A stretch of DNA of 17,357 nt from Peptococcaceae bacterium BRH_c23 (GTDB lineage Bacteria; Bacillota_B; Desulfitobacteriia; Desulfitobacteriales; Desulfitobacteriaceae): assembly GCA_000961805.1 (NCBI GenBank), contig LADV01000306.1, positions 1 to 17,357 on the forward strand, given 5' to 3'. Positions within the stretch are counted from its first letter, which is position 1; the number at the start of each line of letters is the position of its first letter. A program made the position numbers and the translations under genes. The notes below the pieces were generated by a model. That model did no database searches. It was given only the letters and a program-made list of their open reading frames with translations, and was not told where the DNA came from. Positions 597 through 17,357 of the stretch are shown here, piece after piece.

Positions 597-633
597 TTAA
601 AGAAATAATTAATTAAATCAATTATTTCTTTAA
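597..633 (-). repeat. A+T-rich hairpin over the metF-metV stop codon
   Basis: A 14-bp perfect inverted repeat (TTAAAGAAATAATT at 597-610 and its complement at 620-633) with a 9-nt loop includes the TAA stop and last codons of the upstream gene. With almost no G/C it would be weak. It could attenuate or protect transcript between metF-metV and the small gene, but it is not a convincing terminator. Confidence 0.4.
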
Positions 634-2295: not shown

Positions 2296-4128
2296 TCAAC
2301 TTAGGCGCTCTAAATACATGCTATTCATGAAGTAACTGGAAAATGTGGAATTTCCGCCCAGTTCCACATGGCGAATTTTAAGATATAACTCCTTGGCCTT
2401 CGTTAATTCTTGGTAATTCAGAAGAGCTCGTATAGCTCCTACATGCGCCGCATTACCAACCGATTTAATCTTATCTGGGGATATATCTGGAACAAGACCA
2501 ATATTTAAAATGTTATTTGCTTTAAGATAGGTTGCAAAGGTCCCTGATAAAATAACTGAATCAAGCTCAGGTACTGTAATATCAGCCATTTCAACTAAGG
2601 TTTTAATTCCTGCGCAGACAGCTCCTTTGGCTAACTGCATTTCGCTAATGTCTTTTTGACTTAAGGTCACATCTATTCCTTGATCCGTACCATAAGCCAA
2701 GACAAATTCACGCCCTTTTTCACCTTTGCGAATCCGATTGGCTAGTTCTAGGGAAAGCCCTTCTCCCTTTTCAGGATCATAAAGTTTCCCTTGTTTGTTG
2801 ACAACACCAGACTTTCTCATCTCATCGATCCCCTCAATGAGACCTGAGCCGCAAATGCCGACTGGTTTATGTCTGCCGATCACTTCAAAGGTTACTCCAT
2901 CGTCCGTGATCGTAACTCCTTCAATGGCTCCCTGTTTTGCTCTCATTCCATGGGCAATGCCAGCACCTTCGAAAGCTGGTCCTGCCGCCGTAGAGCAGGC
3001 AATCATCGTGTTCTCGGTTTTTAAGAACAGTTCGCAATTCGTACCTAAGTCAATGAGTAAATGATTCCCTTCTCCCAAAACTTCAGGCGCTCCTACAATA
3101 GCCCCCATGGTATCTCCCCCAACAAAGCTTCCGATGTTTGGGAAGAGATGAACCTTAGCTTGAGCATTGATTTCCAGTCCTAATTCCCTCGCCGTGAACG
3201 TCAAGGGTCGATTACAGACTGAAACAAAGGGAGAAACTGCAAGATGAGAAACATCCAAACCTAGAAGAAGATGTTGCATCGTCGTGTTACCCACGATCGT
3301 CATTTTATAGATCTCGCTTTGTTGGATATCCGTCTTAGAAGCGAGTTCTTCAAGTAAGTGATTAATCGTTCTCCTCACAGCACTGCGTAAAGTCAAGGCA
3401 TTCTCTCGACTTTCCGTAGCAAAGGAAATACGAGAGATTACATCCGCACCATAAGCTGTCTGTTGATTTTCCGTAGATACAACTTTCAGGACATCTCCTT
3501 GTAATAGATCGACTAGGGCGACTGCTACGCTGGTGGTTCCAATATCAATGGCTACACCATAAAGTCGTTTTGTCGTATCTCCCGCTTCGATATCCATAAT
3601 CTCATCGTCAGAAGCTGTAATCGTTAAGGCGTACTTATCTGCCCGTAAAACGTCCGGAACCTTACCTAGGACATACAAGCTGGCCTTAGTATAACTCTTA
3701 CCTGTGATCGTGCTTAGGGTATCTACGATACGATCCCAGTCCCCTCGTTCATCAGCAAGGGTTGGCTTGCTGGCCTGAATATATACCTTTTCCACCTTGG
3801 CATCTAAGGCAGTCGCCTTCATTCCGAGGAGAGCCCCTTCTTTTCGATCCTGGCTCTCGACAAAGTCCAGTTCAATAACCATACCCTCAGCAGGTACAAC
3901 GGTACAGGCAAGCCTTATACCTGTCTTTAATTCAATGTCATTGAGATGCGCTAAATCTCGCTCACTTGGCGAAGAGACATGCCCAGTCATTCGAACTTTA
4001 CATTTACCACAGGTTCCTTTGCCATTACAAACATTTTGCACGGGAAGACGATTACGGATGAGGGCTTCCATTAAGGTTTCATTTTCCTCTGTTGTTATGA
4101 CTTGATTGGGGTAAATTGTTATCTCCAT
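2296..4128 (-). CDS. RACE-type corrinoid activation protein (2Fe-2S ferredoxin + ASKHA ATPase)
   Basis: This 610-residue protein reactivates corrinoid proteins whose cobalt has been oxidised to Co(II), using ATP and a low-potential electron. Residues 1-90 are a 2Fe-2S ferredoxin domain with ligands C34, C40, C43 (CNGKGTCGKC) and C75 (RLACTV). A linker follows, then from about residue 189 an ASKHA/actin-fold ATPase, starting with the phosphate-binding GVAIDIGTTSVAVALV and continuing with MTIVGNTTMQHLLLG, LLIDLGTNCEL and GICGSGLIEGI. This is the RACo/RACE layout known from acetogens and from Desulfitobacterium methyltransferase clusters. The [2Fe-2S] version is typical of bacterial activators, whereas RamA of methanogens carries 4Fe-4S centres. 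AGGAGG lies 7 nt before the ATG. Its targets are presumably the two corrinoid proteins upstream. The family call is firm; which partner it serves is inferred. Confidence 0.93.
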   Translation of the reverse strand: MEITIYPNQVITTEENETLMEALIRNRLPVQNVCNGKGTCGKCKVRMTGHVSSPSERDLAHLNDIELKTGIRLACTVVPAEGMVIELDFVESQDRKEGALLGMKATALDAKVEKVYIQASKPTLADERGDWDRIVDTLSTITGKSYTKASLYVLGKVPDVLRADKYALTITASDDEIMDIEAGDTTKRLYGVAIDIGTTSVAVALVDLLQGDVLKVVSTENQQTAYGADVISRISFATESRENALTLRSAVRRTINHLLEELASKTDIQQSEIYKMTIVGNTTMQHLLLGLDVSHLAVSPFVSVCNRPLTFTARELGLEINAQAKVHLFPNIGSFVGGDTMGAIVGAPEVLGEGNHLLIDLGTNCELFLKTENTMIACSTAAGPAFEGAGIAHGMRAKQGAIEGVTITDDGVTFEVIGRHKPVGICGSGLIEGIDEMRKSGVVNKQGKLYDPEKGEGLSLELANRIRKGEKGREFVLAYGTDQGIDVTLSQKDISEMQLAKGAVCAGIKTLVEMADITVPELDSVILSGTFATYLKANNILNIGLVPDISPDKIKSVGNAAHVGAIRALLNYQELTKAKELYLKIRHVELGGNSTFSSYFMNSMYLERLS

Positions 4129-4278: not shown

Positions 4279-4902
4279 TTATTCTACCTTTTCTAAGAAA
4301 TTCGCCAGTTCTTTAGGAGTATTAAAGAGATGATCTGGAGAACCTTCCTGGAGTTTAGCGGGTGAATGCCATCCCCACGTGACTGCAATGGTCTGGGTTC
4401 CAGCATGTTTACCTTCGATCATATCTCCTTTAGTATCCCCCACATAATAGGCGGGGATTCTGGGATGTAAGGACATTGTGTTTTGAATCTTTTTAATTTT
4501 ACTCTTTTCCTTTTCTGCCCCAATGACATCGATAAAACAAGTAATTCCGTTTTGGCTTAATATCTTTATCGTAGCACTGGACAGATTTGAGGTTATGACA
4601 TAAACTAAGTGTTTTTCAGAAATACGTTGTAATGCTTCTCCTATGTCAGCAAAGAGTTCAAGATCTGCCAATTGTTCACCTTGTAAAATTTCATATCGCT
4701 TTAAAATAGTGTCAATCGTTGATTCATCCATACCGCGCTGCATCATAGTTTCGTAGACATTCCCTTCAAAAAGCCCGATCACATCATGCGGCTCTTGGAT
4801 CCCTGTGAACCCATTCTCCAGACAGGCTTGTGAAAAGCGAGCTATAAAAACCTCAAGGGAATCAACGATAACTCCATCATAATCAAACATTACAAGCGCC
4901 AC
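4279..4902 (-). CDS. HAD-superfamily phosphatase, phosphoglycolate-phosphatase-like
   Basis: This 207-residue protein has all four HAD motifs: motif I D7-Y-D9-G-V (nucleophile and acid/base Asp), motif II T104-S-N, motif III Lys in GAEKEKSK (about 131-133) and motif IV G-D156-TKG-D160. An alpha-helical cap (about residues 15-85) between motifs I and II makes it a subfamily I enzyme like Gph or beta-phosphoglucomutase. The start is GTG, with AGGAGG 7 nt upstream. It sits between the terminator after the MtgA-like gene and the corrinoid activator. The substrate cannot be read from sequence. It might clear a dead-end phosphorylated metabolite or undo the action of the APH-fold kinase encoded 3.6 kb away; both are guesses. 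Confidence 0.85.
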   Translation of the reverse strand: MALVMFDYDGVIVDSLEVFIARFSQACLENGFTGIQEPHDVIGLFEGNVYETMMQRGMDESTIDTILKRYEILQGEQLADLELFADIGEALQRISEKHLVYVITSNLSSATIKILSQNGITCFIDVIGAEKEKSKIKKIQNTMSLHPRIPAYYVGDTKGDMIEGKHAGTQTIAVTWGWHSPAKLQEGSPDHLFNTPKELANFLEKVE

Positions 4903-5041: not shown

Positions 5042-5845
5042 TTAGCCTAAGAAATCGAATTGTTTATTGCGGAAGGCCTTAAGATATTTGACACAATAGT
5101 CATCTCGTCCAGCCAGAGCCTCGGCAGTCACCAAGCTCGCCATCATCATCTTATCCAGCGGGTTGATGATGAGTCCATCCAACCCTTTGCCGATGGCCAT
5201 AATAGCAAAGGCATGGTTCATGAATTTTCGAACTGGCAAGCCATAAGACACATTGGAAAGTCCGCAAATCGTATGGACCCCTTTAAAGCGAGTCATGATG
5301 GCTTCCACAGAGTTAATGAACTCAACTGCAAAGGTACTGTTGGTAGAAACAGGCTGAACCAACGGGTCAACATAAATATTATTAAGCGGAACATTATTTT
5401 TGACTAAGCCGTCAATCAGTTTTTCGGCAATTCTAAGCCGAGCATCCATTGTTTCGGGCATCCCTTCGTCACTCATGCAAAGGGCCACAACTTTTAAGTC
5501 AGTTCCGGCAACGACAGGAATTAAGGCATTATAACGTTCTTTTTCCAAAGATATAGAGTTAATCATCGCGATGCCTTTGTGCACAGACAGAGCCGCCTCG
5601 ATGGCCTTGGGATCTGGACTATCAATGCAGCAAGGGGCGTCAACTGCTTCTTGAACTGTTTTCACTAGCCATTGCAGGTATTCAGGTTCTTTGCCCACAA
5701 AGATACCGGCATTCACATCGATAAAGTCCGCTCCTGCTTCATATTCGTCCTTAGCCACCTGTTGGATATATGCAGCATCCTGTGCTTTGATGGCTTCCCC
5801 AACAGCCTTGCGGCTTGCATTAATTAATTCTCCAACTACTAACAT
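5042..5845 (-). CDS. Methylcorrinoid:tetrahydrofolate methyltransferase, MtgA/AcsE-like pterin-binding protein
   Basis: This 267-residue single-domain protein has the pterin-binding TIM-barrel fold shared by AcsE, MtgA and the dihydropteroate synthase family. Visible family motifs are MLVVGELINAS at the N terminus, GADFIDVNAG near 40, CIDSPDPKAIEAAL near 74, MINSISLE near 94, YVDPLVQP near 159 and the ICGLSNVSYGLP strand near 195, whose Asn corresponds to the pterin-contacting Asn of AcsE. It should transfer the methyl group from the corrinoid protein to tetrahydrofolate. The length fits the family and AGGAGG precedes the ATG. It is separated from the upstream corrinoid gene by 336 bp holding its own sigma-54-type promoter, and is followed by a terminator, so it may be regulated apart from the methyltransferase gene. 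Physiological substrate pairing is inferred from context. Confidence 0.88.
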   Translation of the reverse strand: MLVVGELINASRKAVGEAIKAQDAAYIQQVAKDEYEAGADFIDVNAGIFVGKEPEYLQWLVKTVQEAVDAPCCIDSPDPKAIEAALSVHKGIAMINSISLEKERYNALIPVVAGTDLKVVALCMSDEGMPETMDARLRIAEKLIDGLVKNNVPLNNIYVDPLVQPVSTNSTFAVEFINSVEAIMTRFKGVHTICGLSNVSYGLPVRKFMNHAFAIMAIGKGLDGLIINPLDKMMMASLVTAEALAGRDDYCVKYLKAFRNKQFDFLG

Positions 5846-6181: not shown

Positions 6182-6808
6182 TTATTTAGCAGTAAGTCGG
6201 CGAGCCGTCTCCACTGCTCCGGGAGCGTCAGTGCTCCAACCATCTGCCCCAATTTTGTTAGCAAAATCTTCTGAAACAGGTGCGCCGCCGACCATCGTCT
6301 TAAGGCTTAAACCCTGTTCGCGGATTGCTTTAACCGTGACTTCCATAAACGGCATCGTGGTGGTTAAGAGTGCGGACATGCAGATCACATCGGCATTTTT
6401 CTCCTTAGCCGTGGCCAGGAATTTTTCTGTATCTACGTCTACACCGAGGTCATAGACTTCAAAGCCGGCACCTTCCATCATCATGGAAACCAGGTTTTTG
6501 CCAATGTCATGTAAGTCACCTTTGACAGTTCCGATAATAATGGTTCCCTTTTTCTCGTTTTCCCCTTGAGACAACAATGGCTTAAGTACTTCAAGTCCGG
6601 CTTTCATAGCTTTAGCCGCCATGAGCATTTCCGGCACAAAGAATTCTCCTTCAGAGTAGCGTTGGCCAACTTCATCCATGGCTGCGATCAGACCATCACT
6701 AAGAATTTCAGAAACGTCAGTCCCACTAGCTACCTCTGCATTAACGAGAGTCACCACTTTGTCGATATCAAATTCAACCACTGCAGCAAAAATGTCTTGT
6801 ACGCTCAT
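6182..6808 (-). CDS. Corrinoid (methyl-carrier) protein, MtgC/MttC family
   Basis: This 208-residue cobamide-binding protein acts as methyl carrier between the MttB-family methyltransferase encoded just upstream and the MtgA-like enzyme. Residues 1 to about 85 form the helical cap domain (B12-binding-2, motif VPEMLMAAKAMKAGL). Residues about 88-208 form the Rossmann-like B12-binding domain with the base-off/His-on signature D98-L-H100-D-I-G103, the S-A-L strand (MSALLTTTM) and GGAP near 175. H100 would ligate cobalt from below. AAAGGGAGAG precedes the ATG, and the gap to the methyltransferase gene is 86 bp, so the two are likely one transcript. The family is certain; the exact substrate system (glycine betaine or another methylated amine) depends on the partner. 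Confidence 0.92.
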   Translation of the reverse strand: MSVQDIFAAVVEFDIDKVVTLVNAEVASGTDVSEILSDGLIAAMDEVGQRYSEGEFFVPEMLMAAKAMKAGLEVLKPLLSQGENEKKGTIIIGTVKGDLHDIGKNLVSMMMEGAGFEVYDLGVDVDTEKFLATAKEKNADVICMSALLTTTMPFMEVTVKAIREQGLSLKTMVGGAPVSEDFANKIGADGWSTDAPGAVETARRLTAK

Positions 6809-6894: not shown

Positions 6895-8337
6895 TTATAG
6901 GCTCCATTTAGCGTCTCCCGCGACTAGTCCCTTAAAATGGTCACGAACTTTAGCATCCATTTCGTCGGTGAAGCGCGACTTATTAGGTTTGCTCAGAATT
7001 TTATTAGCTTCTTTCATCGCTCGGCTATGGGCATCCGGCTTACCTTGATCTTCCCAACGACGACGCATTTCTCTCGTCGCAACTTTAGGGAGAACTGCGA
7101 TAGTACGCATATTCTTCATAGTATGGTCGGTGTCCATATAACTACCACCAGGTCCAATTTTAGCAATTAGATCTAAGCAGAGGTTCTCTTCGCTGTATTC
7201 ATAGCCCTTTTTCATTCGTTTGAGCATTAAGGCGATTTCATTATCGATAACCGCTTTAGCAAAGTCAAAGGCCATCAGACTTCCTAAGAGACCACCCATA
7301 TTGAAGAGGTCTGCCCCTGCCAGCAAGGCACCTGTGGTATTCATACCCGTCTCATAGCCGGATTGAGCATCATTTGAATGAGCATTCGTCAAGCCAATGT
7401 ATCCACCGGAAGGAACATTGTAAAATCTTGCCATCTCTGTATGAGCCATTTGCATCATTCCGGTCTCGATAGCACCAGGTGCATAAGCCCCTGTCCGCAT
7501 ATCAGCAACCGTTGACAATACCGCATAAATCATAGGGGCACCCGGACGAATCATTTGGATTAGAGTTGCCAATCCCAAGAACTCAGCATTACCAAGCGTT
7601 AATGTTCCCATCAAGCTAAGTGGTGAGGTCATCCCTGCATTAGGCACAATCGTTCCATAGACTGGTAAACCTTGTTCAATCAGGTAGATAACTGCTTCCG
7701 TCGACTCCACATCAAAGGTCAAGGGAGAAACAACTGGGCAGTAGTGGTGGTTGATGAAGGGACGCTTACGATATTCTTCTTCGCTTCCTGCGATCAGGGC
7801 GCCTAACTCTAAGACTGTTTTGAGGTCCTCCATGTTGGGAGTATTACTACGGACAGGTTTTTTGCAGTTTTTCAAAGCAGGGTAAAAACGAGATATACTG
7901 AACTGCCCTTCTGGGGCATCATCAGCTAAGGTAGAAATTGAAAAAACATCAAAGCCTGGCAGTTCATTAATCAAATAAGCAATATTGGCAATATCGTCAG
8001 ATGTTGCTCGACGTTCTTCGCCTGTTTTAGGATCGATAATATTAGGTGCTGAACTTCCTGTTACGACGATCGGTCGGTCTCCGGGCATTGTGACATCGAA
8101 TTTAGGATCTTGGGCCGTAAAAGTATAAGTAGGAACAAACGACTTTCTAGCGTTCTCGACTACTTCTCTTGGAAACTTGACCATCATTGTCTCCATGTCA
8201 ACTTGGCAGCCATTCTTAGCAAAAATTGCAAGTGCTTTCTCATTGCGAACCAGCATCCCAACGTTTTCAAGAATTTCCAATGAGGCTTCGTGAACGCGTT
8301 CTACTTCTACCTGACTAAATAATTTTGTAAATTCCAC
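6895..8337 (-). CDS. MttB-superfamily amine methyltransferase without pyrrolysine (MtgB-like)
   Basis: This 480-residue member of the trimethylamine methyltransferase superfamily is a TIM barrel that should demethylate a quaternary or tertiary amine and methylate the cognate corrinoid protein encoded next. The frame is open throughout, with no internal amber codon, so unlike methanogen MttB it has no pyrrolysine. It belongs with the non-Pyl group that includes glycine betaine methyltransferase MtgB of Desulfitobacterium and the carnitine, proline-betaine and gamma-butyrobetaine enzymes of Eubacterium limosum. Family-typical stretches include VHEASLEILENVGM, GSSAPNIIDPKTGEERRATSDDI (in part), SNTPNMEDLKTVLEL, NHHYCPVVSPLTFD and MAFDFAKAVIDNEIALML. 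I chose the GTG at 8337, which has AAAGGGGA 7 nt upstream; the longer frame would start with TTG at 8364 without a good site. Sequence reading cannot tell which betaine or methylamine is used; being followed by mtgC- and mtgA-like genes is the betaine pattern. Confidence 0.9.
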   Translation of the reverse strand: MEFTKLFSQVEVERVHEASLEILENVGMLVRNEKALAIFAKNGCQVDMETMMVKFPREVVENARKSFVPTYTFTAQDPKFDVTMPGDRPIVVTGSSAPNIIDPKTGEERRATSDDIANIAYLINELPGFDVFSISTLADDAPEGQFSISRFYPALKNCKKPVRSNTPNMEDLKTVLELGALIAGSEEEYRKRPFINHHYCPVVSPLTFDVESTEAVIYLIEQGLPVYGTIVPNAGMTSPLSLMGTLTLGNAEFLGLATLIQMIRPGAPMIYAVLSTVADMRTGAYAPGAIETGMMQMAHTEMARFYNVPSGGYIGLTNAHSNDAQSGYETGMNTTGALLAGADLFNMGGLLGSLMAFDFAKAVIDNEIALMLKRMKKGYEYSEENLCLDLIAKIGPGGSYMDTDHTMKNMRTIAVLPKVATREMRRRWEDQGKPDAHSRAMKEANKILSKPNKSRFTDEMDAKVRDHFKGLVAGDAKWSL

Positions 8338-8344
8338 AATACTG

Positions 8345-8352
8345 TCCCCTTT
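8345..8352 (-). promoter_or_regulatory. Ribosome binding site setting the methyltransferase start
   Basis: AAGGGGA on the minus strand lies 7 nt before GTG at 8337 and lies inside the longer alternative frame (TTG at 8364), favouring the shorter protein. Confidence 0.65.
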
Positions 8353-8399
8353 CCATACTATCAATTTTTCTTTTACATCTCATTTATCGAGTGTAAGGT

Positions 8400-8506: not shown

Positions 8507-9709
8507 TTATAAGGAGTTAGCAACGTCTGCAATCTCTGCTTTATGGTTTTCAATCCAATTCATCAAACGAACATTATGCTGTAAATAAGCAATGTACTCA
8601 TACTCGTTCAAATTCGTTCCGGCATAGTAGGCTAATACATCCCAGTTAATCAAATAGATATTGGCAGCGGCAATCATCGTTGGCAGATACTCTAACTCCA
8701 CTGCATTGAGCGGTTCAAGTCCTTTCAATTTAACCAATCTTTGTTGATATGCTTTTAGAAAGATTGCACATTTATCGAGAAGTAATACACCATCCTCGTC
8801 ATCTTTCCAGGAGCAACAACAATAGGCTAGAGCAAGCGAAACATCAAAGAGCCGATGATCAATTTTAGACCAATCAAAATCAAAGATTCCCACAACCTTG
8901 TTATCCTCGTATTTTAAGTTGCCGGCATGAAAGTCATTGTGACAAGGTGTGTATGGCATTTTTTCTAGTATTTCATTGGGGATTCGCGAACTCTCAATAA
9001 CCTCTAATATTGAGTCAAGCTTACTTTTATAATAGGTGTGAAACTTTGTGTCAATATCGGTCTGTGCTAAAGTCTTATATTTTTCCGGTAGAGCCAAGAG
9101 TAAATCCATGATCTTAGGTTCTACCCGCTCTAAACCATGTGAATTAAAATCTCTGGCAGCGTTATGGAACGTTGCGAGAACTTCTCCAGCGCTGGCACAT
9201 TCTTCATCATTTAAATTAGGAGTATCCCAGGTGTATAAGTCCTCTCCTTTCAGAAATTCATACACCGCAAAATAGATATCCTTCTTCTTTTCTTTCGCTC
9301 CCTCGACTTTCTTGACAAATGTTGAACCATCTTTAGTACGAATTAATCCTGCCGCAATATCTAAGCCATGAGCTTTTGAGTATTCAATCATTAAATGTTC
9401 AAATGTTATTTCTGACTCTGTAATTCCGTATTTATATTTCCTCACAAAATATTCGTTCTTCTGTCCGTCTTTTTCAGTATAAATGCCAAAACTACGATTA
9501 ACATATCCACCAAAAATTTCGTAAACAGCAGTAACACTCCCAAGATTATAAGGTTGAAGAGCATCAACGATTTGATTTCGGAGCAGGACTGATTCCATAG
9601 ACTCAAAGAAATGAGCAGCAGCTTTTTTTAGTTCTTGACTTTGGGTAAACATGGAAAACGTTTGATCCACACTAGGTTCTTTAAGAAGTCTCATCTTTTT
9701 TGTGTCCAC
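8507..9709 (-). CDS. APH/choline-kinase-fold phosphotransferase, substrate unknown
   Basis: This 400-residue protein of the APH (aminoglycoside/choline/homoserine kinase) fold transfers a phosphate from ATP to a small molecule. With the GTG start, the catalytic loop is H257-N-D259-F-H-A-G-N264 and the metal-binding motif is D277-F-D279. The N-lobe includes GGYVNRSFGIYT and FVRKYKYG with the ATP-binding Lys region. I chose GTG at 9709 because GAGGAGG lies 6 nt upstream; the longer frame (TTG at 9724) would contain that site itself. It lies between the first corrinoid gene and the MttB-family gene. Relatives include choline/ethanolamine kinases, ThrB-like homoserine kinases and CotS-like spore proteins, so a link to choline or ethanolamine is attractive but unproven. 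An antibiotic-resistance role is unlikely given the context. Confidence 0.82.
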   Translation of the reverse strand: MDTKKMRLLKEPSVDQTFSMFTQSQELKKAAAHFFESMESVLLRNQIVDALQPYNLGSVTAVYEIFGGYVNRSFGIYTEKDGQKNEYFVRKYKYGITESEITFEHLMIEYSKAHGLDIAAGLIRTKDGSTFVKKVEGAKEKKKDIYFAVYEFLKGEDLYTWDTPNLNDEECASAGEVLATFHNAARDFNSHGLERVEPKIMDLLLALPEKYKTLAQTDIDTKFHTYYKSKLDSILEVIESSRIPNEILEKMPYTPCHNDFHAGNLKYEDNKVVGIFDFDWSKIDHRLFDVSLALAYCCCSWKDDEDGVLLLDKCAIFLKAYQQRLVKLKGLEPLNAVELEYLPTMIAAANIYLINWDVLAYYAGTNLNEYEYIAYLQHNVRLMNWIENHKAEIADVANSL

Positions 9710-9715
9710 AGGCAC

Positions 9716-9722
9716 CCTCCTC
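9716..9722 (-). promoter_or_regulatory. Ribosome binding site setting the kinase start
   Basis: GAGGAGG lies 6 nt before the GTG at 9709. It overlaps codons 1-3 of the longer alternative frame, which argues against that start. Confidence 0.7.
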
Positions 9723-9882
9723 AAAATTATTACTCTCTAAATCGCAACCCTTCTCTATTTAAATATTATTTACTCTTTAATGCGCGATTAGTTTGACTAT
9801 TGTTATAATAATAGCATCTAATGAAAACTTTTTTATAACACATTCCTGCTCGTTTTGACGCATTACAACCAATTGAATATTC

Positions 9883-10004: not shown

Positions 10005-10658
10005 TTAGCGACTTTTTCTACTAATGATCTTAGCTAGATTTTCTTCTAAGAAGACTCGAACTTCAAAAGCATCTTCAAAATAATAATCAGCCCCGATTGT
10101 CTTAGCATAACCTGAGTCGACAGGTGCACCTCCCACAATGATGACCAAGTTTTTACGAATCCCCATTAGCTCTAATTCGTCAATCACTTCTTTCATCACC
10201 GTCATCGTGGTTGTAAGCAAGGCAGACATCATAAGAATATGGGGTTTTTCTTTGCGAACGACACTGGCAAACTTTTTGGGCGTTACATCCACTCCCAAAT
10301 TAATAATCTCTGCTCCGGTGCTGATGACTAACATCTTCACTAAGCTTAAACCAATATCATGAAGATCCCCAGCTACCGTTCCCATGACAATTTTAGCGGC
10401 AATTTTTTTATCAGAATCCTTTAGCAAGGGTTCTACAAGGCTTAACCCGGCATGCATTGCCCGAGATGCCATGAGAACCTCGGGGACCATCACCCTTTGC
10501 TCACGAAACTTCTCAGCTACACGATCCATTCCTGCGATTAAACCCTTTTCCAGAACAGACTCTGCCGAAAAACCCTGAGCTAACGCTTGTTTCGTTAGGG
10601 CCATGGTATTTTCTGCTTCTCCAGAAATAATGGATTTAATGATAGCTAGAAAAACCAT
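10005..10658 (-). CDS. Second corrinoid (methyl-carrier) protein of the MtgC/MtbC type
   Basis: This 217-residue cobamide-binding protein has the same two-domain plan as the other corrinoid protein here. It has a helical cap to about residue 85 (VPEVLMASRAMHAGL), then a B12-binding domain with D98-L-H100-D-I-G103, MSALLTTTM and VGGAP followed by GADYYFEDA. Spacing of the signature is identical to that of the other copy, but the overall sequence is clearly diverged, so this is not a recent duplication. It starts 13 bp after the stop codon of the PocR-type regulator and is probably translationally coupled to it. No methyltransferase gene is directly attached. It may serve the MttB-like enzyme downstream, a methyltransferase elsewhere, or act as a corrinoid-bound sensor partner of the regulator. 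Confidence 0.9.
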   Translation of the reverse strand: MVFLAIIKSIISGEAENTMALTKQALAQGFSAESVLEKGLIAGMDRVAEKFREQRVMVPEVLMASRAMHAGLSLVEPLLKDSDKKIAAKIVMGTVAGDLHDIGLSLVKMLVISTGAEIINLGVDVTPKKFASVVRKEKPHILMMSALLTTTMTVMKEVIDELELMGIRKNLVIIVGGAPVDSGYAKTIGADYYFEDAFEVRVFLEENLAKIISRKSR

Positions 10659-10671
10659 TCATACTCACCCT

Positions 10672-11955
10672 CTAATACAAACTGTTTTTGTAGATCAGGG
10701 GTGTAACCCCGATATACTTACGGAAGACTTTAGAAAAATAACTTTGGTTTTGAAAGCCAACCGCTTTCGAAACTTGAGCAACACTAAATTCAGGTTTTTT
10801 CATCATTTCAACCGCTTGCTCCACTCTCACTCTGGTTAAGTAATCATTAATCGTACAATCGAGTTCTTCTCGAAACAAGCGAGAGAGATGCGAAGTACTT
10901 ACAAAGAGATGCTCAGCCACATCCGCAACAGTAAGGGGCAAAGCGTAATGTTCCATGATGAAATCCCGAGCATTTTTAACAATGGCCAGGTGTTTTTTAT
11001 CTGCTAAGGTAAAAATCCCTTCTAAGAAGGTTTCAACAATATGCTGAATCTTGTAAAAAAACTTTTCTACTCTCTCAATACCTTCGATTTCCTTGTTAAA
11101 TTCTTTTAGATGCATCATAATACGTTCCGCGTTAGCTCCACCTTCGACGGCCGCCCTAGATGTTAAGGTTGCCAATTCCAAGATACGCACTTTGACCGTT
11201 TCCAGATCCCCTACAGTTTTGGTATAGAGGTCTGTTAAAAGACTTTGAAGCGTTTGGTTTGCTCTCGTTCGATCCCCAAGGCGTATATAGCGCAAAAATT
11301 TACGTTCTTTCTTTAGATAAGTGTCATAATCACTAATATCCGGTAAATTCTTCCGCTTTCTCTCCTCGATTTCCCGGCGTATCTGCTGTTGTTGCAAACG
11401 GGTGGCATCAATTTCTGCTAAGCTATTAATATTTCGTTTCACGATATGATTGACTACGACGAAAAGCATATCTGCAGCCGCTTGGGAACGAGCCGGAGAG
11501 ACAACCTCAAGCTTACAGGCTTTGGACTTTAATTCCTCGAAGTTCTTGATCCCAACATTCAGCTTCTTCAGTTCTTGAAAGAAGAAGTGATCAGGTTCCC
11601 ACATTAAAACTTGTCCACAGATAATGCTTCCCCTGGAAACCCCTTGAATCGTGATTGGAACGGCCCAAATCACCAATCCTGCATGACAACGAAAAAAATA
11701 GGGTTCCTCCCATTTTGCAGCTTCCAAGCTGGCTCGTTTATAGGAATCTTGACATTTTTTTTCTCCTTCAGGTTGGCAGCGAATATAACGACAAAAATCG
11801 CTGCGTTCTAATTCTCCAAGTACAGAAAAGGTTGCTCCCTCGTTATTAATCGCCTCGATATGCAAACCAGTAGCGTTGTGAAAACTACCTAGGATTTCTT
11901 CAAGATAGTTAGGGTCCAGTAGGTTAGCCTCAAATGTTTTGCGCATCGAACCCAT
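10672..11955 (-). CDS. PocR-domain AraC-family transcriptional regulator
   Basis: This 427-residue regulator has an N-terminal PocR-type ligand-sensing domain (about residues 14-180) with the cysteine pattern C55-x4-C60-x7-C68, then C90 and C113. A coiled-coil-like helical middle follows (about 185-310). The C-terminal AraC-type double helix-turn-helix (about 325-427) contains VADVAEHLFVSTSHLSRLFRE and VSKAVGFQNQSYFSKVFRKY. The founding protein PocR activates the propanediol and cobalamin genes of Salmonella; relatives often sit next to corrinoid methyltransferase genes in anaerobes. Here it lies between the eut operon's terminator and the corrinoid gene and could control either side. Start: ATG at 11955 or the in-frame ATG at 11946; AAGGA before the second makes the choice uncertain. 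Confidence 0.9.
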   Translation of the reverse strand: MGSMRKTFEANLLDPNYLEEILGSFHNATGLHIEAINNEGATFSVLGELERSDFCRYIRCQPEGEKKCQDSYKRASLEAAKWEEPYFFRCHAGLVIWAVPITIQGVSRGSIICGQVLMWEPDHFFFQELKKLNVGIKNFEELKSKACKLEVVSPARSQAAADMLFVVVNHIVKRNINSLAEIDATRLQQQQIRREIEERKRKNLPDISDYDTYLKKERKFLRYIRLGDRTRANQTLQSLLTDLYTKTVGDLETVKVRILELATLTSRAAVEGGANAERIMMHLKEFNKEIEGIERVEKFFYKIQHIVETFLEGIFTLADKKHLAIVKNARDFIMEHYALPLTVADVAEHLFVSTSHLSRLFREELDCTINDYLTRVRVEQAVEMMKKPEFSVAQVSKAVGFQNQSYFSKVFRKYIGVTPLIYKNSLY

Positions 11956-12209: not shown

Positions 12210-13667
12210 TCAACGATTGAAGACTAAGGTTTTCAAGACCACTGGAACAACTCTGCCACCCATAAGGGGTTTCCCAATATCAATATAATCACAATTCTCC
12301 ACTTCCAGCTGATCAATGCAAACCAATTCTAAGTGGCGATTGGCTAAAGCATTAATACACTGTCCTAAGACTTTCCCACAGTCCGCTTCGATAACCAGAA
12401 TAAGGGGTTTATCTGTACACAAGTAGTCTTCCAGCCCCCATAGCAGCCCTTGTGCCAAACCATTGATATCTGCAAAGGACATTGTGCGGGGACCTTTCAT
12501 GGCTAGGGCTATGACTCCCTCTGAGTGATCCACTTGAAGGCGGAGAATCTCGTTTTTAACGACTTCAGCTATGCTTATTGGTGTATCGGGAATCCCGGCT
12601 GTGAAGGGAGAAATAACCATGACATTGCGCAATGGCAAGGTATTTTCCTGAAGATGGATGGTACTGCCACTTAAATTGACCGACTGAGTTCCAGTCCCAA
12701 TGACGGTTGCTCGAACTGTTTCATTCGGCTTTTCTAAGACAAACCCAGCTGTTTCTAAGCTTACTTTAAGCTCCCAGCCTAAAAGCGGACCGAAATCTCC
12801 AAAAGCAGTCACTTCTGCCATAGTTGCAGGCCCATTTGAAGCATAGACATAGTCTGCTACCCCGCCAGAAATCATCACTTTTCGAATCGGATGTTCTAAC
12901 TGCAAAGGAGGGGTCATCAGAAGTTCCTTGGTTAACCCAGCGTGTATAGAGGTCTTGAGCACCTCCACAACACACTCAGCCATTGCTTTAACCAAGGGGC
13001 GAAATTGAGCAAGGGTCACTCTCTCTCCTACTTGAAGCCTTTGTCCAGTGGCTTGTAAGGCAATTCTTGCCGGCTCAGAAATGTAAGTGATCCGGTCCCC
13101 TTGTCGTTCAAACTCGATTAAGTGTCCGCCGACGTTTAGGCATGAAGAATCGACTGCCTTGCCCTCCCGAAACGTAGCATAGTTGGAGGTTCCACCACCC
13201 ACGTCGATATTGACGACGACTTGGTGTCTTTGGGCAGAGAATAACGCAGCACCCGATCCTTTGCCTGCAAAAATAGCCTCCAAATTGGCACCGGCAGTGG
13301 CCACTACAAAGTCTCCAGCAAACCCAGCTAAAGCATCAATAATTGCTTTAGCATTTTCCTTTTTTGCCGTCTCTCCAGTGATAATCACAGCTCCAGTGTC
13401 AATCATTTCTGGCGTTAGCCCAGCAGCCTGATATTCGCTTTCCACAATCTTGGAAACTGCAACCGCATTAATCAAGTCGCGGTCTAAAAGCGGCGTAAAA
13501 TAGATCTGGCTGCGGTGGATCACTTCCTTATCCGTGATTTCCACACGAGGAACTAAGGTTCCGGAAGCCGTATTCTCAATGGTCAAGCGGCTGATCACCA
13601 GTTGTGTAGTCGTGGTTCCAATATCAATGCCCACACTCGTGATCTGTTGATTAGTCGATTCGGGCAT
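12210..13667 (-). CDS. eutA: EutA, ethanolamine ammonia-lyase reactivating factor
   Basis: This 485-residue actin/ASKHA-fold protein uses ATP to release damaged cobalamin from ethanolamine ammonia-lyase so that fresh adenosylcobalamin can bind. The phosphate-1 loop VGIDIGTTTTQLVISRL is at about residues 12-28, VIITGETAKKENA near 93-105, VVNIDVGGGTSNYATF near 150-165 and MISGGVADYVYAS near 270. Length is slightly above the E. coli protein (about 467). In transcription order it is the last eut gene, following eutC, whereas in most eut operons eutA comes before eutB and eutC. It is separated from eutC by 121 bp holding three hairpins. GGGGTGGTG is the nearest purine-rich stretch before the ATG, with GGAGG further up, so translation initiation may depend on the hairpin next to it. 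Confidence 0.94.
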   Translation of the reverse strand: MPESTNQQITSVGIDIGTTTTQLVISRLTIENTASGTLVPRVEITDKEVIHRSQIYFTPLLDRDLINAVAVSKIVESEYQAAGLTPEMIDTGAVIITGETAKKENAKAIIDALAGFAGDFVVATAGANLEAIFAGKGSGAALFSAQRHQVVVNIDVGGGTSNYATFREGKAVDSSCLNVGGHLIEFERQGDRITYISEPARIALQATGQRLQVGERVTLAQFRPLVKAMAECVVEVLKTSIHAGLTKELLMTPPLQLEHPIRKVMISGGVADYVYASNGPATMAEVTAFGDFGPLLGWELKVSLETAGFVLEKPNETVRATVIGTGTQSVNLSGSTIHLQENTLPLRNVMVISPFTAGIPDTPISIAEVVKNEILRLQVDHSEGVIALAMKGPRTMSFADINGLAQGLLWGLEDYLCTDKPLILVIEADCGKVLGQCINALANRHLELVCIDQLEVENCDYIDIGKPLMGGRVVPVVLKTLVFNR

Positions 13668-13788: not shown

Positions 13789-14697
13789 TCACTTTTGCTG
13801 GTTCAGCTTAACACCACTAGCTTTGGCAGCCAGAATTTGTTTAATGACATCCGTGAGGTGTGCCCCTGCTTCAGCAGGTGGGATTCCGCCCTTGTGAATA
13901 TTGGAGATAACCGTACGGTCCGCTTCAACCGTGTTTTGATCGGGTCGGTAAATCATGTAGGCACTAAGGCTCTCCGCCGTTCCTAGTCCTGGACGCTCTC
14001 CAATCAAGGAAATGATCACATCTGAATTGACGATAGATGCTACATGGTCTTGAACCCATACCCTGCCATTCTTCACGAAGAACGGGGCTCCGACTTTGAT
14101 TCCTGCAGCTTTCAATCCTTGCATTAAGGCAGGCAGTAAGTCGGGGATGTTGGCTTCAATCGCACTTGAACTCAGTCCGTCGACGATTAGAATCTGGACC
14201 TGGACATTCTTTTCACACTTCTCCGAAATCATTTTCACTGCTTCTGAGGATAAACGACGCCCCAGGTCTGGTCTTTGCAGAAACTCGTCCTTACTAGTAG
14301 CAGCACTTTGAACTGACATTAAGTTCATCCGTTGGAGAAATTGCTCAGAAACATCGAGGAATACGGCATCTTGGGCTACGGCATGATCCGCCAAAAACCT
14401 TAATAAGGCCATGGTCTTGGGTCGTGCTCCGGCTCTGCCAATTCCAATCCGGGCTGGGGTTGATTTCATCATAGCCTTTACCGCATCCGCATTGAACGGG
14501 TTGGAAATCTGCATTTCATCTAGGGGAGGGAACGTCACCATCTCCTCTGATTCTCTGCTAGGGAGTAGGGACGGATCCATCATCGCTGCCGACATCACGT
14601 GGTCTTTCCCCTTCTGTGAAAGCAGCCCTTTCTTAGCCAGTTCTTCCATAACACTTTGGATAATGACTTTTTCTAATTCGTTATTCGCAACTGCCAC
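13789..14697 (-). CDS. eutC: EutC, ethanolamine ammonia-lyase small subunit
   Basis: This 302-residue small subunit pairs with EutB to form the adenosylcobalamin-dependent lyase that turns ethanolamine into acetaldehyde and ammonia, normally inside a microcompartment. Family motifs are RIGIGRAGARPKTMALLRFLADHAVAQDAV (near 82-111; seen in two parts), QILIVDGLSSSAIEANIPDLLPAL (near 167-190) and LIGERPGLGTAESLSAYMIYRP near 231. Length is close to that of E. coli EutC (295). The N-terminal 75 residues are variable, as usual. The start is GTG with GGGAGG about 9 nt upstream. The eutB stop is only 14 bp away, so the subunits are translated as a pair. GRAGAR replaces the GRAGPR I recall from enteric EutC, a minor change. 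Confidence 0.95.
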   Translation of the reverse strand: MAVANNELEKVIIQSVMEELAKKGLLSQKGKDHVMSAAMMDPSLLPSRESEEMVTFPPLDEMQISNPFNADAVKAMMKSTPARIGIGRAGARPKTMALLRFLADHAVAQDAVFLDVSEQFLQRMNLMSVQSAATSKDEFLQRPDLGRRLSSEAVKMISEKCEKNVQVQILIVDGLSSSAIEANIPDLLPALMQGLKAAGIKVGAPFFVKNGRVWVQDHVASIVNSDVIISLIGERPGLGTAESLSAYMIYRPDQNTVEADRTVISNIHKGGIPPAEAGAHLTDVIKQILAAKASGVKLNQQK

Positions 14698-14711: not shown

Positions 14712-16076
14712 CTATTTATCAAATATCGATGGGTCTCCGGCTCTCTCAGTCAGTTTGCCGTTTTCTAAAATCCCCATCTTCTCTAACCATTGCTCAAATT
14801 CAGGAAGCGGTCGCAAACCCAAAATTTCCCGGGTACTTGCATCATCATGGTAACTAGTATCCTGATAGCTCAACATGACATCATCACCGCCAGGAACTCC
14901 CATGAAGAAGTTCGAACCAGCCATGGCGCAAAGCAGGGTTCCCATTTCCTGATCATTCTGATCTGCTTTCATATGGTTGGTATAACAAGGTGCGATTCCC
15001 ATCGGCAAACCATGCAGCTTACCCATAAATAGATCTTCCAAGTCTGCCCGGATCACTTCTCGACCTGAATAGATCGTCTCTGGTCCAATAAATCCAGAAA
15101 CGTTGTTGGTCATAAATGGCCGATAACCACGTGCATACCCATAGGTTCTTGCTTCCAAGGTCATCATATCAACACCAAGATGGGCATCTAGAGAGACCTC
15201 GGAGCCTTGGCCAGTTTCAAAGTACATAAGATTAGGACCTGTCGCCGTTCCTTGGCGCTGTGCTAAAGCAAAAGCCTCATCCAGAATGGTCGCGCTTACA
15301 CCAAAGGCATCATTCGCTTTTTGCGTTCCAGCGATACTTTGGAAAACCAAGTCAACAGGAGCCCCTTTTTCAATCGCTTTCATTTGGGTTGTCACATGAG
15401 CCAACACACAGTTTTGAGTTGGAATTGCCCATTTCACCATGAAATTTTTGACCGTATCTAAAAGTCGAGTAACCGTCTCTACATTGTCTTCCACAGGATT
15501 AATTCCAATTACGGCATCTCCCGAACCATACGATAACCCTTCTTTAAGGGATGCCAGCATTCCTTCGACATTGTCTGTGGGGTGATTGGGTTGACAACGA
15601 AAAGCAAGTGTTCCAGGTACACCGAGTGTGGTATTACAGTGTGACTGAATGCGCATCTTCTTCGAGCCAAAGACTAGGTCCATGGTGGACATTAACTTAG
15701 CTACTGCAGCAATCATTTCGCTCGTCAGCCCTCGACTGATATGAGCCAAGTCCTCTCCCGTTGTTTTATGGTCTAAGATATACTCACGCAAGTAGCCGAC
15801 CGTCCAGCTTTTGATCTCTTGATAGATTCTCAAGTTAAGTCCGTCATAGATTGCTCGAGTGACTTCATCCTCTTCATAAGGAATGACAGGGTTATTATAA
15901 ATATCCTCAAGGGTAAGATTACTCAAGACTAATTTTGCTGCCACTCGCTCAGAAGCAGATTTTGCGGCAATTCCGACCAATTCATCACCAGACTTCTCTT
16001 CATTGGCCTTAGACATAACTTCCTTGAGACTTTGGAATGCAAAAATTTTATTATAAACTTTTGCTTTTAAAATCAT
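14712..16076 (-). CDS. eutB: EutB, ethanolamine ammonia-lyase large subunit (with altered Asp362 position)
   Basis: This 454-residue TIM-barrel catalytic subunit binds adenosylcobalamin and substrate. From the ATG at 16076 it numbers like E. coli EutB (453 residues): the substrate-binding residues R160 and Q162 (AFRCQPNHPTDN), N193 (GINPVEDN) and E287 (MYFETGQGS) all fall at the same positions. At 362, where I recall Asp in E. coli (MGCDVCYTNH), this protein has Ala (MGIAPCYTNH). Other conserved stretches are MRIQSHCNTTLG and GVPGGDDVMLSYQDTSYHD. I prefer ATG 16076 over TTG 16091 because GGGGGAT lies 6 nt before the ATG and inside the longer frame. The eutQ stop is 30 bp upstream and eutC follows 14 bp downstream. 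The lyase-family assignment is secure; whether ethanolamine itself is the main substrate is open because of position 362. Confidence 0.96.
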   Translation of the reverse strand: MILKAKVYNKIFAFQSLKEVMSKANEEKSGDELVGIAAKSASERVAAKLVLSNLTLEDIYNNPVIPYEEDEVTRAIYDGLNLRIYQEIKSWTVGYLREYILDHKTTGEDLAHISRGLTSEMIAAVAKLMSTMDLVFGSKKMRIQSHCNTTLGVPGTLAFRCQPNHPTDNVEGMLASLKEGLSYGSGDAVIGINPVEDNVETVTRLLDTVKNFMVKWAIPTQNCVLAHVTTQMKAIEKGAPVDLVFQSIAGTQKANDAFGVSATILDEAFALAQRQGTATGPNLMYFETGQGSEVSLDAHLGVDMMTLEARTYGYARGYRPFMTNNVSGFIGPETIYSGREVIRADLEDLFMGKLHGLPMGIAPCYTNHMKADQNDQEMGTLLCAMAGSNFFMGVPGGDDVMLSYQDTSYHDDASTREILGLRPLPEFEQWLEKMGILENGKLTERAGDPSIFDK

Positions 16077-16089: not shown

Positions 16090-16106
16090 AATCTGACTTA
16101 ATGTCC

Positions 16107-16781
16107 TTAATCGCAAAAATCTGCCCAGTTCGCAGGGTAGGTAGCATAGAATACTTTACAAAACGTGGGAGAGGAAAAAACCACTTGGCTTCCCTTAGGA
16201 ATATAGACCACATCTCCTGGTTTAGCGCGAAAGACTTGCCCCTCAACTTCTAAGACAAACTCGCCCTCTATAACATAATCGACTTCATCATAATTTAAAA
16301 ACCAAGGCAATCTGGAATGATCAAAGGTCATAAAACCCGAGGCGAGGTTGCCCACCCGTGAGTCAATCACATCAACGAGTCCCACCTTTTGCCCTGGAGG
16401 AGCTTCCAGAAAAGGCTGGATGACTACGGTTTCCCCTTTGACATGAGTGGCTTTGGGATTCTCACAGGCTGGTTTGAGCACCTCACCCAGAATCTTCTGC
16501 ACCGCTCTTTTCAGGTCTTCACTCTGGCTTCCTGCATCTGTTGAGTTTCCAGAGGAAATGCTGACTTCTTTAACACTAGACGGTTGATTCACCTGTTGTC
16601 CGACTGATTGACCAATAACACTGCGACTAACAATTTCCTGTCTCCCTTTGCTAATCGTGATCCCTAATTCTTTAGCAAGATCTTTGGCGGAGGGAGTTAG
16701 AACACTATCTTCTTCTAAAACTACATTTTTATCCAGCTTAGCCAAATCTCGTAATACGGCCGCCGAAATAAATCGTCCCAT
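16107..16781 (-). CDS. eutQ: EutQ, ethanolamine utilisation cupin / acetate-kinase-like protein
   Basis: This 224-residue protein has an N-terminal region (1-50) carrying the sequence LTPSAKDLAKELGITI, a motif shared by N termini of several Eut/Pdu accessory proteins. A variable, Ser/Gln-rich linker (about 58-85) follows. The C-terminal EutQ cupin barrel (about 110-224) contains GFMTFDHSRLPWFLNYDEVDYVIEGEF (seen in two parts), AKPGDVVYIPKGS and FCKVFYATYPANW. EutQ of Salmonella has been reported to have acetate kinase activity and to be needed for ethanolamine growth under some anaerobic conditions. AGGAGG lies 6-7 nt before the ATG. It comes right after a 320-bp heptad-repeat region and before eutB; a eutQ-eutB-eutC-eutA order is unusual. 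Confidence 0.92.
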   Translation of the reverse strand: MGRFISAAVLRDLAKLDKNVVLEEDSVLTPSAKDLAKELGITISKGRQEIVSRSVIGQSVGQQVNQPSSVKEVSISSGNSTDAGSQSEDLKRAVQKILGEVLKPACENPKATHVKGETVVIQPFLEAPPGQKVGLVDVIDSRVGNLASGFMTFDHSRLPWFLNYDEVDYVIEGEFVLEVEGQVFRAKPGDVVYIPKGSQVVFSSPTFCKVFYATYPANWADFCD

Positions 16782-17102
16782 AACACACCTCCTTTTCGAT
16801 GTTCGAAGTTCGAGGTTCGATGCTCGATTTTTAAGTTTTCGTTACTAGTTTTCTCTGGCTCAAACTTAGCGCTTCGCACCTCGTTTTAGTCTCCTTTAGT
16901 ACTTCGTATTCAATAGATGCGTAGTTCAGGTCGCGTTTCGAGCCTCGAAACTCGCTTCAATTAGTCCTCGCGCCTCTTGTCTCCCACCTCATGCTTCGTT
17001 CTTCGCCATCCAGTTCGTTATCCTTGTTTCGAACCTCGTGCTTCGTATCTACCAGTTCGTGATCCTCGTTCGAACTTCGAACTTCAAACCTCGAACCTCG
17101 AT
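16782..17102. repeat. Degenerate heptanucleotide repeat array between shell-protein gene and eutQ
   Basis: This 321-bp gene-free stretch is dominated by a degenerate 7-bp unit. On the minus strand after the shell-protein stop, successive units read TCGAGGT, TCGAGGT, TTGAAGT, TCGAAGT, TCGAACG. Near eutQ they read ATCGAGC, ATCGAAC, CTCGAAC, TTCGAAC, ATCGAAA, running in phase into the AGGAGG of eutQ. In between, CGA/GGA/AGA cores keep spacings of 7 or 14 nt over long runs, with a few phase shifts. Both strands are rich in short palindromes (TTCGAA). I see no gene, promoter or terminator in it. Seven is not a multiple of three, so a coding origin is unlikely. Confidence 0.75.
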
Positions 17103-17357
17103 TCAAGCCAGGCTTTCGATGAGTTGCTTCGCGGGCCTTGGGATGACAACTTGACGAATGAGGAGGCCCTTTTCACTGGCTATGGCGCTTCCCTCTTCGA
17201 CCGCTGCTTTCACGGAGGCGACTTCTCCAGTCAGTACGGTATAGCTTTTGCCTCCGATTCCAAAGGCCAGATGGATCAGCATTGGCTCCACATCTCCTGC
17301 TTTTACCGCAGCATCGGCTGCTTCGATTAAGGATGCCACGCTGTATGTCTCGATAAT
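17103..17357 (-). CDS. Bacterial microcompartment shell protein, PduT-like, C-terminal BMC domain (partial)
   Basis: The frame is open to the window end, so the N-terminal part is missing; 84 residues are visible. They form one BMC domain: IIETYSVASLIEAADAAVKAGDVEP, then HLAFGIGGKSYTVLTGEVASVKAAVEEG, ending GLLIRQVVIPRP. The combination of IVET-S-VA, H-AFGIGGK-Y and EKGLL-----VIPRPH matches the second BMC domain of PduT-type tandem (trimeric) shell proteins, as I recall it from Salmonella PduT. In PduT the first domain carries a cysteine that holds an Fe-S cluster at the trimer pore; that part is off the window, so it cannot be checked. A GTG internal to the frame at 17339 is not the true start. 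It precedes eutQ and the lyase genes and indicates an encapsulated pathway. Confidence 0.88.
   Translation of the reverse strand: MIETYSVASLIEAADAAVKAGDVEPMLIHLAFGIGGKSYTVLTGEVASVKAAVEEGSAIASEKGLLIRQVVIPRPAKQLIESLA

Follow-up and report, generated by a model that had tools for sequence, protein, structure and literature searches.

Choline is a major source of the trimethylamine formed in guts and, in sediments, of precursors of methane. In the ethanolamine ammonia-lyase of E. coli, Asp362 of the large subunit EutB reportedly touches the amine of the substrate, as Shibata in 2010 and Mori in 2014 are said to have found, and R160, Q162, N193 and E287 are further residues that we take to belong to the substrate site.

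A choline system described in E. limosum in 2025 consists of the choline kinase MthK, the phosphocholine:corrinoid methyltransferase MthB, MthC and MthA. According to the available text of that paper, MthB stops at dimethylaminoethanol phosphate, the organism excretes dimethylaminoethanol, and linked mthK and mthB go together with growth on choline in Desulfitibacter alkalitolerans, Sporomusa malonica and Ca. Formimonas warabiya; the paper names ethanolamine once in its main text and Desulfosporosinus nowhere there (PMC12155760). For DCMF growing on choline, the available text reports that each choline gave 3.1 acetate and 1.3 methylamine, neither trimethylamine nor dimethylamine being detected, as well as no growth on trimethylamine, and proposes a route from choline through glycine betaine to sarcosine (PMC8163858). 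Two DCMF papers, this one included, were searched for the word ethanolamine, and neither has it in its main text. Among the titles and abstract openings listed, we found no lyase for N-methylated ethanolamine and no link between EutB and choline demethylation, which is weak evidence of absence, as the lists show part of the matching papers and subscription journals lie mostly outside that search.

Gene content of the window and substrate site of its EutB

The window, that is, the whole analyzed stretch of 17,357 nucleotides, comes from a Desulfosporosinus or a near relative (98% to D. lacus) and joins a eut operon to genes of methyl transfer (Table 1). Between 5042 and 9724, a kinase, a non-pyrrolysine MttB-superfamily enzyme, a corrinoid protein and a tetrahydrofolate methyltransferase lie side by side, as in the MthKBCA system. 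The window was likened to the E. limosum proteins (WP_052237066.1, WP_341455952.1) by gene set and families, hence our term MthK/MthB-like. The kinase has the motif HNDFHAGN...FDFDW and, like its E. limosum counterpart, is encoded next to an MttB-family gene. The product of this gene, the only one of the MttB family within the window, scores 377 bits against TIGR02369, below the cut-off of 525. The shell fragment at the window edge matches the end of a PduT-like ORF in another Desulfosporosinus locus (L002), and its homologue in Sporomusa acidovorans (L010) has two BMC domains. Short repeats of 7 bases, TTCGATG and TTCGAAC with about five copies each, lie between eutQ and the PduT-like gene (16795-17101). 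A DUF6951 protein (217-597) ends the cluster after the methylenetetrahydrofolate reductase gene and is also found beside this gene in L163.

Table 1. Features of the window and of the eutB codons discussed in the text
Feature	Coordinates	Strand	Basis or remark
Methylenetetrahydrofolate reductase (MTHFR) with C-terminal domain	622..2187	-	PF02219, PF12225
RACo-type reductive activator of corrinoid proteins	2296..4128	-	PF14574, PF17651, PF17650
HAD hydrolase, candidate phosphatase for demethylated choline phosphate	4279..4902	-	PF13419; travels with MthK and MthB
MthA-like methylcorrinoid:tetrahydrofolate methyltransferase (MtgA-like)	5042..5845	-	NF005719 over cut-off, PF00809
MthC-like corrinoid protein 2	6182..6808	-	PF02310, PF02607
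MthB-like MttB-superfamily methyltransferase, no in-frame stop (non-pyrrolysine)	6895..8364	-	PF06253
MthK-like kinase (choline kinase candidate), APH-type	8507..9724	-	PF01636 over cut-off, PF01633 under cut-off
Corrinoid protein 1	10005..10658	-	PF02310, PF02607
PocR-AraC regulator	10672..11955	-	PF10114, PF12833
eutA, reactivating factor	12210..13667	-	PF06277
eutC, small subunit	13789..14697	-	PF05985, NF003971
eutB, Ala362-Pro363 clade	14712..16076	-	start at 16076 (MILKAK...); upstream TTG at 16091 also possible
eutB codon 406, Asp	14859..14861	-	266/266 clade rows; Cys, Thr or Ser in 61/61 Asp362 rows
eutB codon 363, Pro	14988-14990	-	
eutB codon 362, GCA, Ala (Asp in E. coli)	14991..14993	-	alignment, translation
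eutB codons 325 (Asn) and 327 (Ser), flanking kept Val326	15096..15104	-	Thr and Val in 61/61 Asp362 rows
EutQ-like cupin protein	16107..16781	-	PF06249
PduT-like microcompartment shell protein, C-terminal part, cut by window edge	17103..17357	-	translation

The window EutB exceeds the curated cut-offs of PF06751 (682.4 bits versus 25) and NF011649 (658 versus 554) over its full length, and its fold agrees with solved EutB. PF06751 is its only Pfam family, which sets it apart from glycyl radical enzymes such as CutC, and it has an EutC partner encoded next to it. HMMER aligned the protein gap-free with E. coli EutB (3abo_A, residues 2-452); R160, Q162, N193, E287, V326, M392 and L402 are identical, and E257 of E. 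coli is replaced by Ala. The aspartate of ordinary ethanolamine ammonia-lyases at position 362 is likewise Ala here. Thus, the alignment bears out two claims of an earlier sequence-only reading, namely Ala362 within MGIAPCYTNH and the retention of R160, Q162, N193 and E287 in the E. coli register. That reading had also given MGCDVCYTNH as the enteric motif: the aspartate is correct for E. coli, but the E. coli motif is MGCDCCYTNH, and MGCDVCYTNH belongs to the Listeria protein 2qez_A.

A clade of EutB proteins with joint changes around position 362

Homologues were collected in two lists, each the best 120 of 7998 matches. By motif, Ala-Pro occupies positions 362-363 in all proteins of one list and in 115/120 of the other (235/240 in total). 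The exceptions among these best-listed proteins are P0195 with Val-Pro, P0201 with Gly-Cys and P0209 with Asp-Cys (603 aa, E. coli-like); P0238, missed by the motif, has Ala-Pro in the alignment, and P0240, a fragment of 332 aa, was kept out of the Ala-Pro count. A private mutation or sequencing error at codon 362 was rejected, since nearly all best-listed homologues have Ala-Pro.

In a tree of 113 rows, 24 of them hand-chosen from the two lists, all 51 rows without Asp362 form one clade (SH-aLRT 99), composed of 49 Ala-Pro rows, the Val-Pro row and P0201; the tree retained the trait columns themselves, an effect that can only favour the grouping. Asp362 was therefore lost once in this sample, whose Asp362 rows are 60 from genome loci plus E. 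coli; further losses may have occurred in the wider family. The clade has a branch I, with the window, other Desulfosporosinus, Sporomusa, DCMF, Thermincola and others, and a branch II, with L020, L022, L025, L026, L028, L033, L049, L054 and their kin. P0201, from Desulfitibacter alkalitolerans, has the motif MGMGCVYTNH and sits on a long branch.

The clade was further compared, as an alignment of 266 rows that left out P0209 and P0240 by length, with 61 Asp362 rows (60 from the best 80 loci and E. coli). Asn325 (263/266) and Ser327 (261/266) stand opposite Thr and Val in every Asp362 row, Thr334 (265/266) opposite Tyr or Phe (61/61); Gly338 and Gln376 are each found in 265/266 clade rows versus 1/61 and 0/61 Asp362 rows, respectively, and Asp412 in 256/266 clade rows. 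The segments 322-327 and 359-363 are predicted strands. Because positions 325, 327, 334, 338, 376 and 406 differ jointly with 362, the alignment indicates that the clade carries a coordinated change. A broken enzyme is unlikely, as the other site residues are conserved across the 266 clade rows (R160 in 265). The sequence-only reading had assumed the loss of a negative charge. Asp362 is indeed gone, but a net loss is unproven, since Asp406 is new and constant in the clade (266/266 versus 0/61). An acidic replacement for Asp362, which that reading would have counted against itself, is thus present as a candidate, and the acidic residue may have moved, Asp406 taking over from Asp362, rather than vanished.

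An Asp362-type motif is present in 29 of 35 clade genomes and was not found in the other six (G007, G012, G014, G121, G132, G414). All 20 motif places that were fetched are EutB genes, eight of them in Desulfosporosinus. Both types occur, for instance, in L003, L015 and L150; in L015 (DCMF) and L150 the Ala-Pro and Asp362 eutBC pairs lie within about 4 kb, and the Asp362 eutBC of L150 has the Ala-Pro eutBC on one side and the gene of a predicted ethanolamine permease (TIGR00908) on the other. In seven branch-II loci (L022, L025, L026, L028, L033, L049, L054), an Asp362 eutB is followed by an Ala-Pro eutB and then by a single eutC. Judging by these paralogues, most clade genomes have another enzyme for ethanolamine, so that ordinary ethanolamine cleavage is usually covered. 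With one clade, joint changes and frequent Asp362 paralogues, the distinct EutB subfamily proposed from the window sequence holds within this sample. In the branch-II tandem pairs, one small subunit may serve both large subunits, or the large subunits may assemble into mixed complexes.

Linkage and co-occurrence with choline-demethylation genes

The window gene order is shared by 8 of 9 Desulfosporosinus loci; in L007, from a metagenome bin, MthA directly follows eutA, the intervening genes being absent. Outside Desulfosporosinus, relatives of the window MthB-like protein (72-80%) also lie beside MthK. In S. acidovorans, on a map joined from the overlapping L010 and L102, the genes MthK-MthB-MthC-MthA-HAD-PocR-corrinoid follow the lyase microcompartment operon, with two opposite-strand ORFs between. 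A set MthK-EamA-c32-MthB-HAD directly precedes the lyase in G121 and G159 and lies 12 kb from it in G185, where EutVW, a permease and an Asp362 eutBC intervene. In G132 one MthK precedes the lyase, a set MthK-MthB-MthC-MthA-HAD comes about 18 kb behind it, and in G181 MthK-MthB-MthC-MthA is some 21 kb away. G012 has MthB on the lyase contig. Across the loci the HAD hydrolase gene keeps company with MthK and MthB. The lyase operon and MthK are not linked in DCMF (G015) or G014; these linkage calls cover genomes other than the draft-contig genomes G011, G013 and G016, and leave aside the MthK of G012. Linkage in other lineages rejects a gene accident confined to Desulfosporosinus.

Several further genes were noted around these loci. 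The c32 protein (L010:6309-6614 and homologues; ~100 residues) follows an EamA transporter gene in Desulfosporosinus, Sporomusa, DCMF and others and has no Pfam or NCBIfam match. A second kinase family occurs near the module, beside pyrrolysine genes (L010:1700-2671, L146:16934-17893, L147:4820-5794, and further L148:7858-8901, L109:9130-10125, L161:8709-9500); its L010 member exceeds the cut-off of Choline_kinase PF01633, and the family might phosphorylate another amino alcohol. S. acidovorans has a second Ala-Pro eutBCA (L019:8216-15036) in a different neighbourhood. By eye, we named an aminotransferase-like gene ahead of this copy, an EutH-like one after it and ETF-like genes upstream.

MthK, called at E below 1e-70, was found in 15/19 branch-I genomes, 0/8 branch-II genomes and 0/48 genomes with Asp362 EutB only; MthB relatives were found in 14/19, 0/8 and 0/35 of these groups, respectively, and in 5/6 genomes with MthK only. 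In these counts G042 was moved from the Asp362-only group (49 to 48) to branch I (18 to 19), as it also has an Ala-Pro EutB, branch-I-like by its identity of 73% to the window protein. Of 398 genomes drawn evenly from the G015 phylum, 13 have Ala-Pro EutB, 14 have MthK and 8 have both, versus 0.46 expected (Fisher 2.5e-10, a value that ignores kinship); thus, MthK occurs in 8/13 Ala-Pro genomes versus 6/385 others. Five of the pairs lie within 22 kb. Ala-Pro EutB stands without MthK in G017, G152, G203, G352 and G414, and MthK without Ala-Pro EutB in G141, G144, G149, G215, G339 and G428. A phylum search around G010 listed MthK in 12/239 genomes; it is not counted as a repeat, since its genomes are largely those of the 398 sample.

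In several Ala-Pro genomes the module is accompanied by a pyrrolysine-type MttB. An MttB gene with one in-frame TAG lies beside it in G121, G159, G132, G181 and Sporomusa, and with TAG read as a residue the L147 protein exceeds the trimethylamine-methyltransferase cut-off of TIGR02369 (637 versus 525 bits). The Desulfosporosinus loci L161 and L162 overlap with L002 and L003; in both, this MttB and a corrinoid protein precede the microcompartment operon, accompanied by a pylC-like gene in L161, which also has a radical-SAM gene in the pylB position, and a pylD-like gene in L162; S. acidovorans has pylS at the corresponding place. Relatives of this MttB (67% or more), which make up a tight group, were found in 18/80 genomes, each of which also has Ala-Pro EutB and MthK. 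None turned up in 8 searched genomes of branch II, in 44 with Asp362 EutB only or in the MthK-bearing G014 and G016. MthK, MthB and the pyrrolysine-MttB group are all absent from the eight branch-II genomes tested, despite their Ala-Pro EutB, and from seven further Ala-Pro genomes (branch-I G007, G009, G017 and G042; G203, G352 and G414 of the phylum sample). Therefore, these members either meet the substrate otherwise or have a different one.

The methylamine enzymes of the 18 module genomes are divided. TAG-type MtmB (methylamine) without MtbB is found in eight (G001, G003, G004, G005, G018, G010, G011, G181), on the contig of the module in G003 and G181, and MtbB (dimethylamine) without TAG-type MtmB in seven (G002, G008, G012, G013, G121, G159, G185); G015 has both, and G006 and G132 have neither. 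With 8 versus 7 of 18, the inventory does not single out methylamine and was dropped as decisive evidence.

Proposed choline route and comparison with known systems

With the substitution, the clade, its co-varying residues, the gene linkage and the co-occurrence in hand, we infer the substrates, the step order and the pocket geometry as follows. The sequence-only reading had suggested a shift toward N-methylated amino alcohols, and linkage and co-occurrence with choline-demethylation genes favour that direction, the substrate itself being our deduction. We think it somewhat probable that choline is demethylated and that the clade EutBC cleaves an N-methylated ethanolamine, N-methylethanolamine being the favourite, to methylamine and acetaldehyde. 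Choline would be imported by a transporter, as found in relatives, and phosphorylated by MthK; MthB, MthC and MthA would pass one methyl group of phosphocholine to tetrahydrofolate, leaving dimethylethanolamine phosphate, from which the HAD enzyme would release dimethylethanolamine. The pyrrolysine-type MttB of relatives, encoded outside the window, would convert this to N-methylethanolamine; it is a candidate for removing the second methyl group because dimethylethanolamine is, like trimethylamine, a tertiary amine. EutBC would then yield methylamine and acetaldehyde, and a microcompartment aldehyde dehydrogenase would turn the latter into acetyl-CoA.

The clade would accordingly have split from ordinary ethanolamine ammonia-lyase with a pocket remodelled for N-methylated ethanolamine, the loss of Asp362 leaving room for the methyl group while Gln162 and Glu287 stay. 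Presumably, ethanolamine offers three N-H to three acceptors and N-methylethanolamine two to two, so that Asp362 could be dispensable, a secondary amine having one N-H fewer than ethanolamine. Against this reading count the lyase operon of DCMF, which is apart from MthK, the betaine route published for DCMF, Asp406 as a possible substitute for Asp362 that may offset the lost charge, the published account of Dehalobacterium formicoaceticum given below, the module-free Ala-Pro genomes and the divided methylamine inventory. More tentatively, the clade may be a B12-dependent N-methylethanolamine methylamine-lyase and the pyrrolysine MttB a dimethylethanolamine methyltransferase, which with MthKBCA, the phosphatase and the microcompartment could make up a complete anaerobic choline pathway free of trimethylamine in Desulfosporosinus, Sporomusa, Formimonas and other Bacillota.

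The single MttB-family gene of the window, and an MthB known from the available E. limosum text to stop at dimethylaminoethanol phosphate (PMC12155760), would also suit a lyase that acts on N,N-dimethylethanolamine right after one demethylation and releases dimethylamine and acetaldehyde. The seven module genomes with MtbB and without TAG-type MtmB agree with this, but the eight of the opposite type do not, the linked TAG-type MttB would be left without a role, and dimethylamine was not detected with DCMF according to the available text, although the MtbB relatives of DCMF could consume it; we regard it as rather unlikely. An ordinary ethanolamine ammonia-lyase, with choline fully demethylated or ethanolamine imported and Ala362 tolerated through Asp406 or water, would explain why the other substrate-site residues are all kept, why Asp406 is new and constant, and why the operons are standard ones with EutC, EutA and shell genes, some with EutH-type permeases beside the Ala-Pro gene (L014, L017, L153). 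We nevertheless consider it unlikely in view of the retained Asp362 EutB, which directly precedes the Ala-Pro gene in seven branch-II loci and adjoins the predicted permease in L150, the several jointly changed positions and the linkage to methyl-transfer genes.

The score of the linked MttB over the trimethylamine-methyltransferase cut-off would fit a B12-dependent choline lyase forming trimethylamine and acetaldehyde, with the pyrrolysine MttB demethylating the trimethylamine. This is highly improbable: a quaternary amine lacks the N-H that the kept Gln162 and Glu287 presumably contact, the linked MthK and MthB would be redundant, and for DCMF the available text reports neither detected trimethylamine nor growth on it. 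On a further reading, the clade cleaves another substituted amino alcohol, such as diethanolamine or an aminopropanol, and part of branch I became associated with choline genes only later. The module-free branch II and branch-I members and the second Sporomusa copy in its different neighbourhood speak for it, as does the B12-dependent cleavage of triethanolamine that Frings and Schink are said to have described in an acetogen, but the repetition of the linkage in several lineages makes it very unlikely.

If N-methylethanolamine is the substrate, the route would give choline a further fate beside CutC and beside the excretion of dimethylaminoethanol, some anaerobes could use choline without making trimethylamine, and a pocket change would have moved ethanolamine ammonia-lyase to a new amine. 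The methylamine of DCMF could then come from choline by a route different from the published proposal, and dimethylethanolamine is suggested as the substrate of the pyrrolysine-MttB group of DCMF, which is reported not to grow on trimethylamine. The DCMF stoichiometry was dropped as support for methylamine made by the lyase: by redox count, the lyase route and the betaine route alike give 2.75 acetate and 1 methylamine, and because the counts are equal the yields exclude trimethylamine and dimethylamine as end products and neither of the routes. S. malonica and Ca. F. warabiya, named above as choline growers, have Ala-Pro EutB, and D. alkalitolerans has the Gly-Cys clade member P0201. Dehalobacterium formicoaceticum carries both Ala-Pro EutB and MthK (P0095, P0345); the available text of a paper on strain EZ94 reports that choline genes are lacking and gives DCM as the only known substrate of this species (PMC10344839).

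Compared with MthKBCA of E. limosum, the locus adds a candidate HAD phosphatase and a B12 lyase, to which relatives join a TAG-type MttB. The clade differs from the EutBC of E. coli (3abo) and Listeria (2qez) by Ala-Pro in place of E. coli Asp362-Cys363 and by Asn325, Ser327, Thr334 and Asp406, by its usual company of an Asp362 paralogue and, in part of branch I, by its linkage to choline demethylation. Like CutC with its GRM1 microcompartment, as far as the available text describes that system (PMC4207490), it is predicted to break the C-N bond of a choline-type amino alcohol, with acetaldehyde and an amine as products and a microcompartment involved; CutC, however, is a glycyl radical enzyme, whereas the window lyase belongs to a B12 enzyme family and its predicted amine is methylamine.
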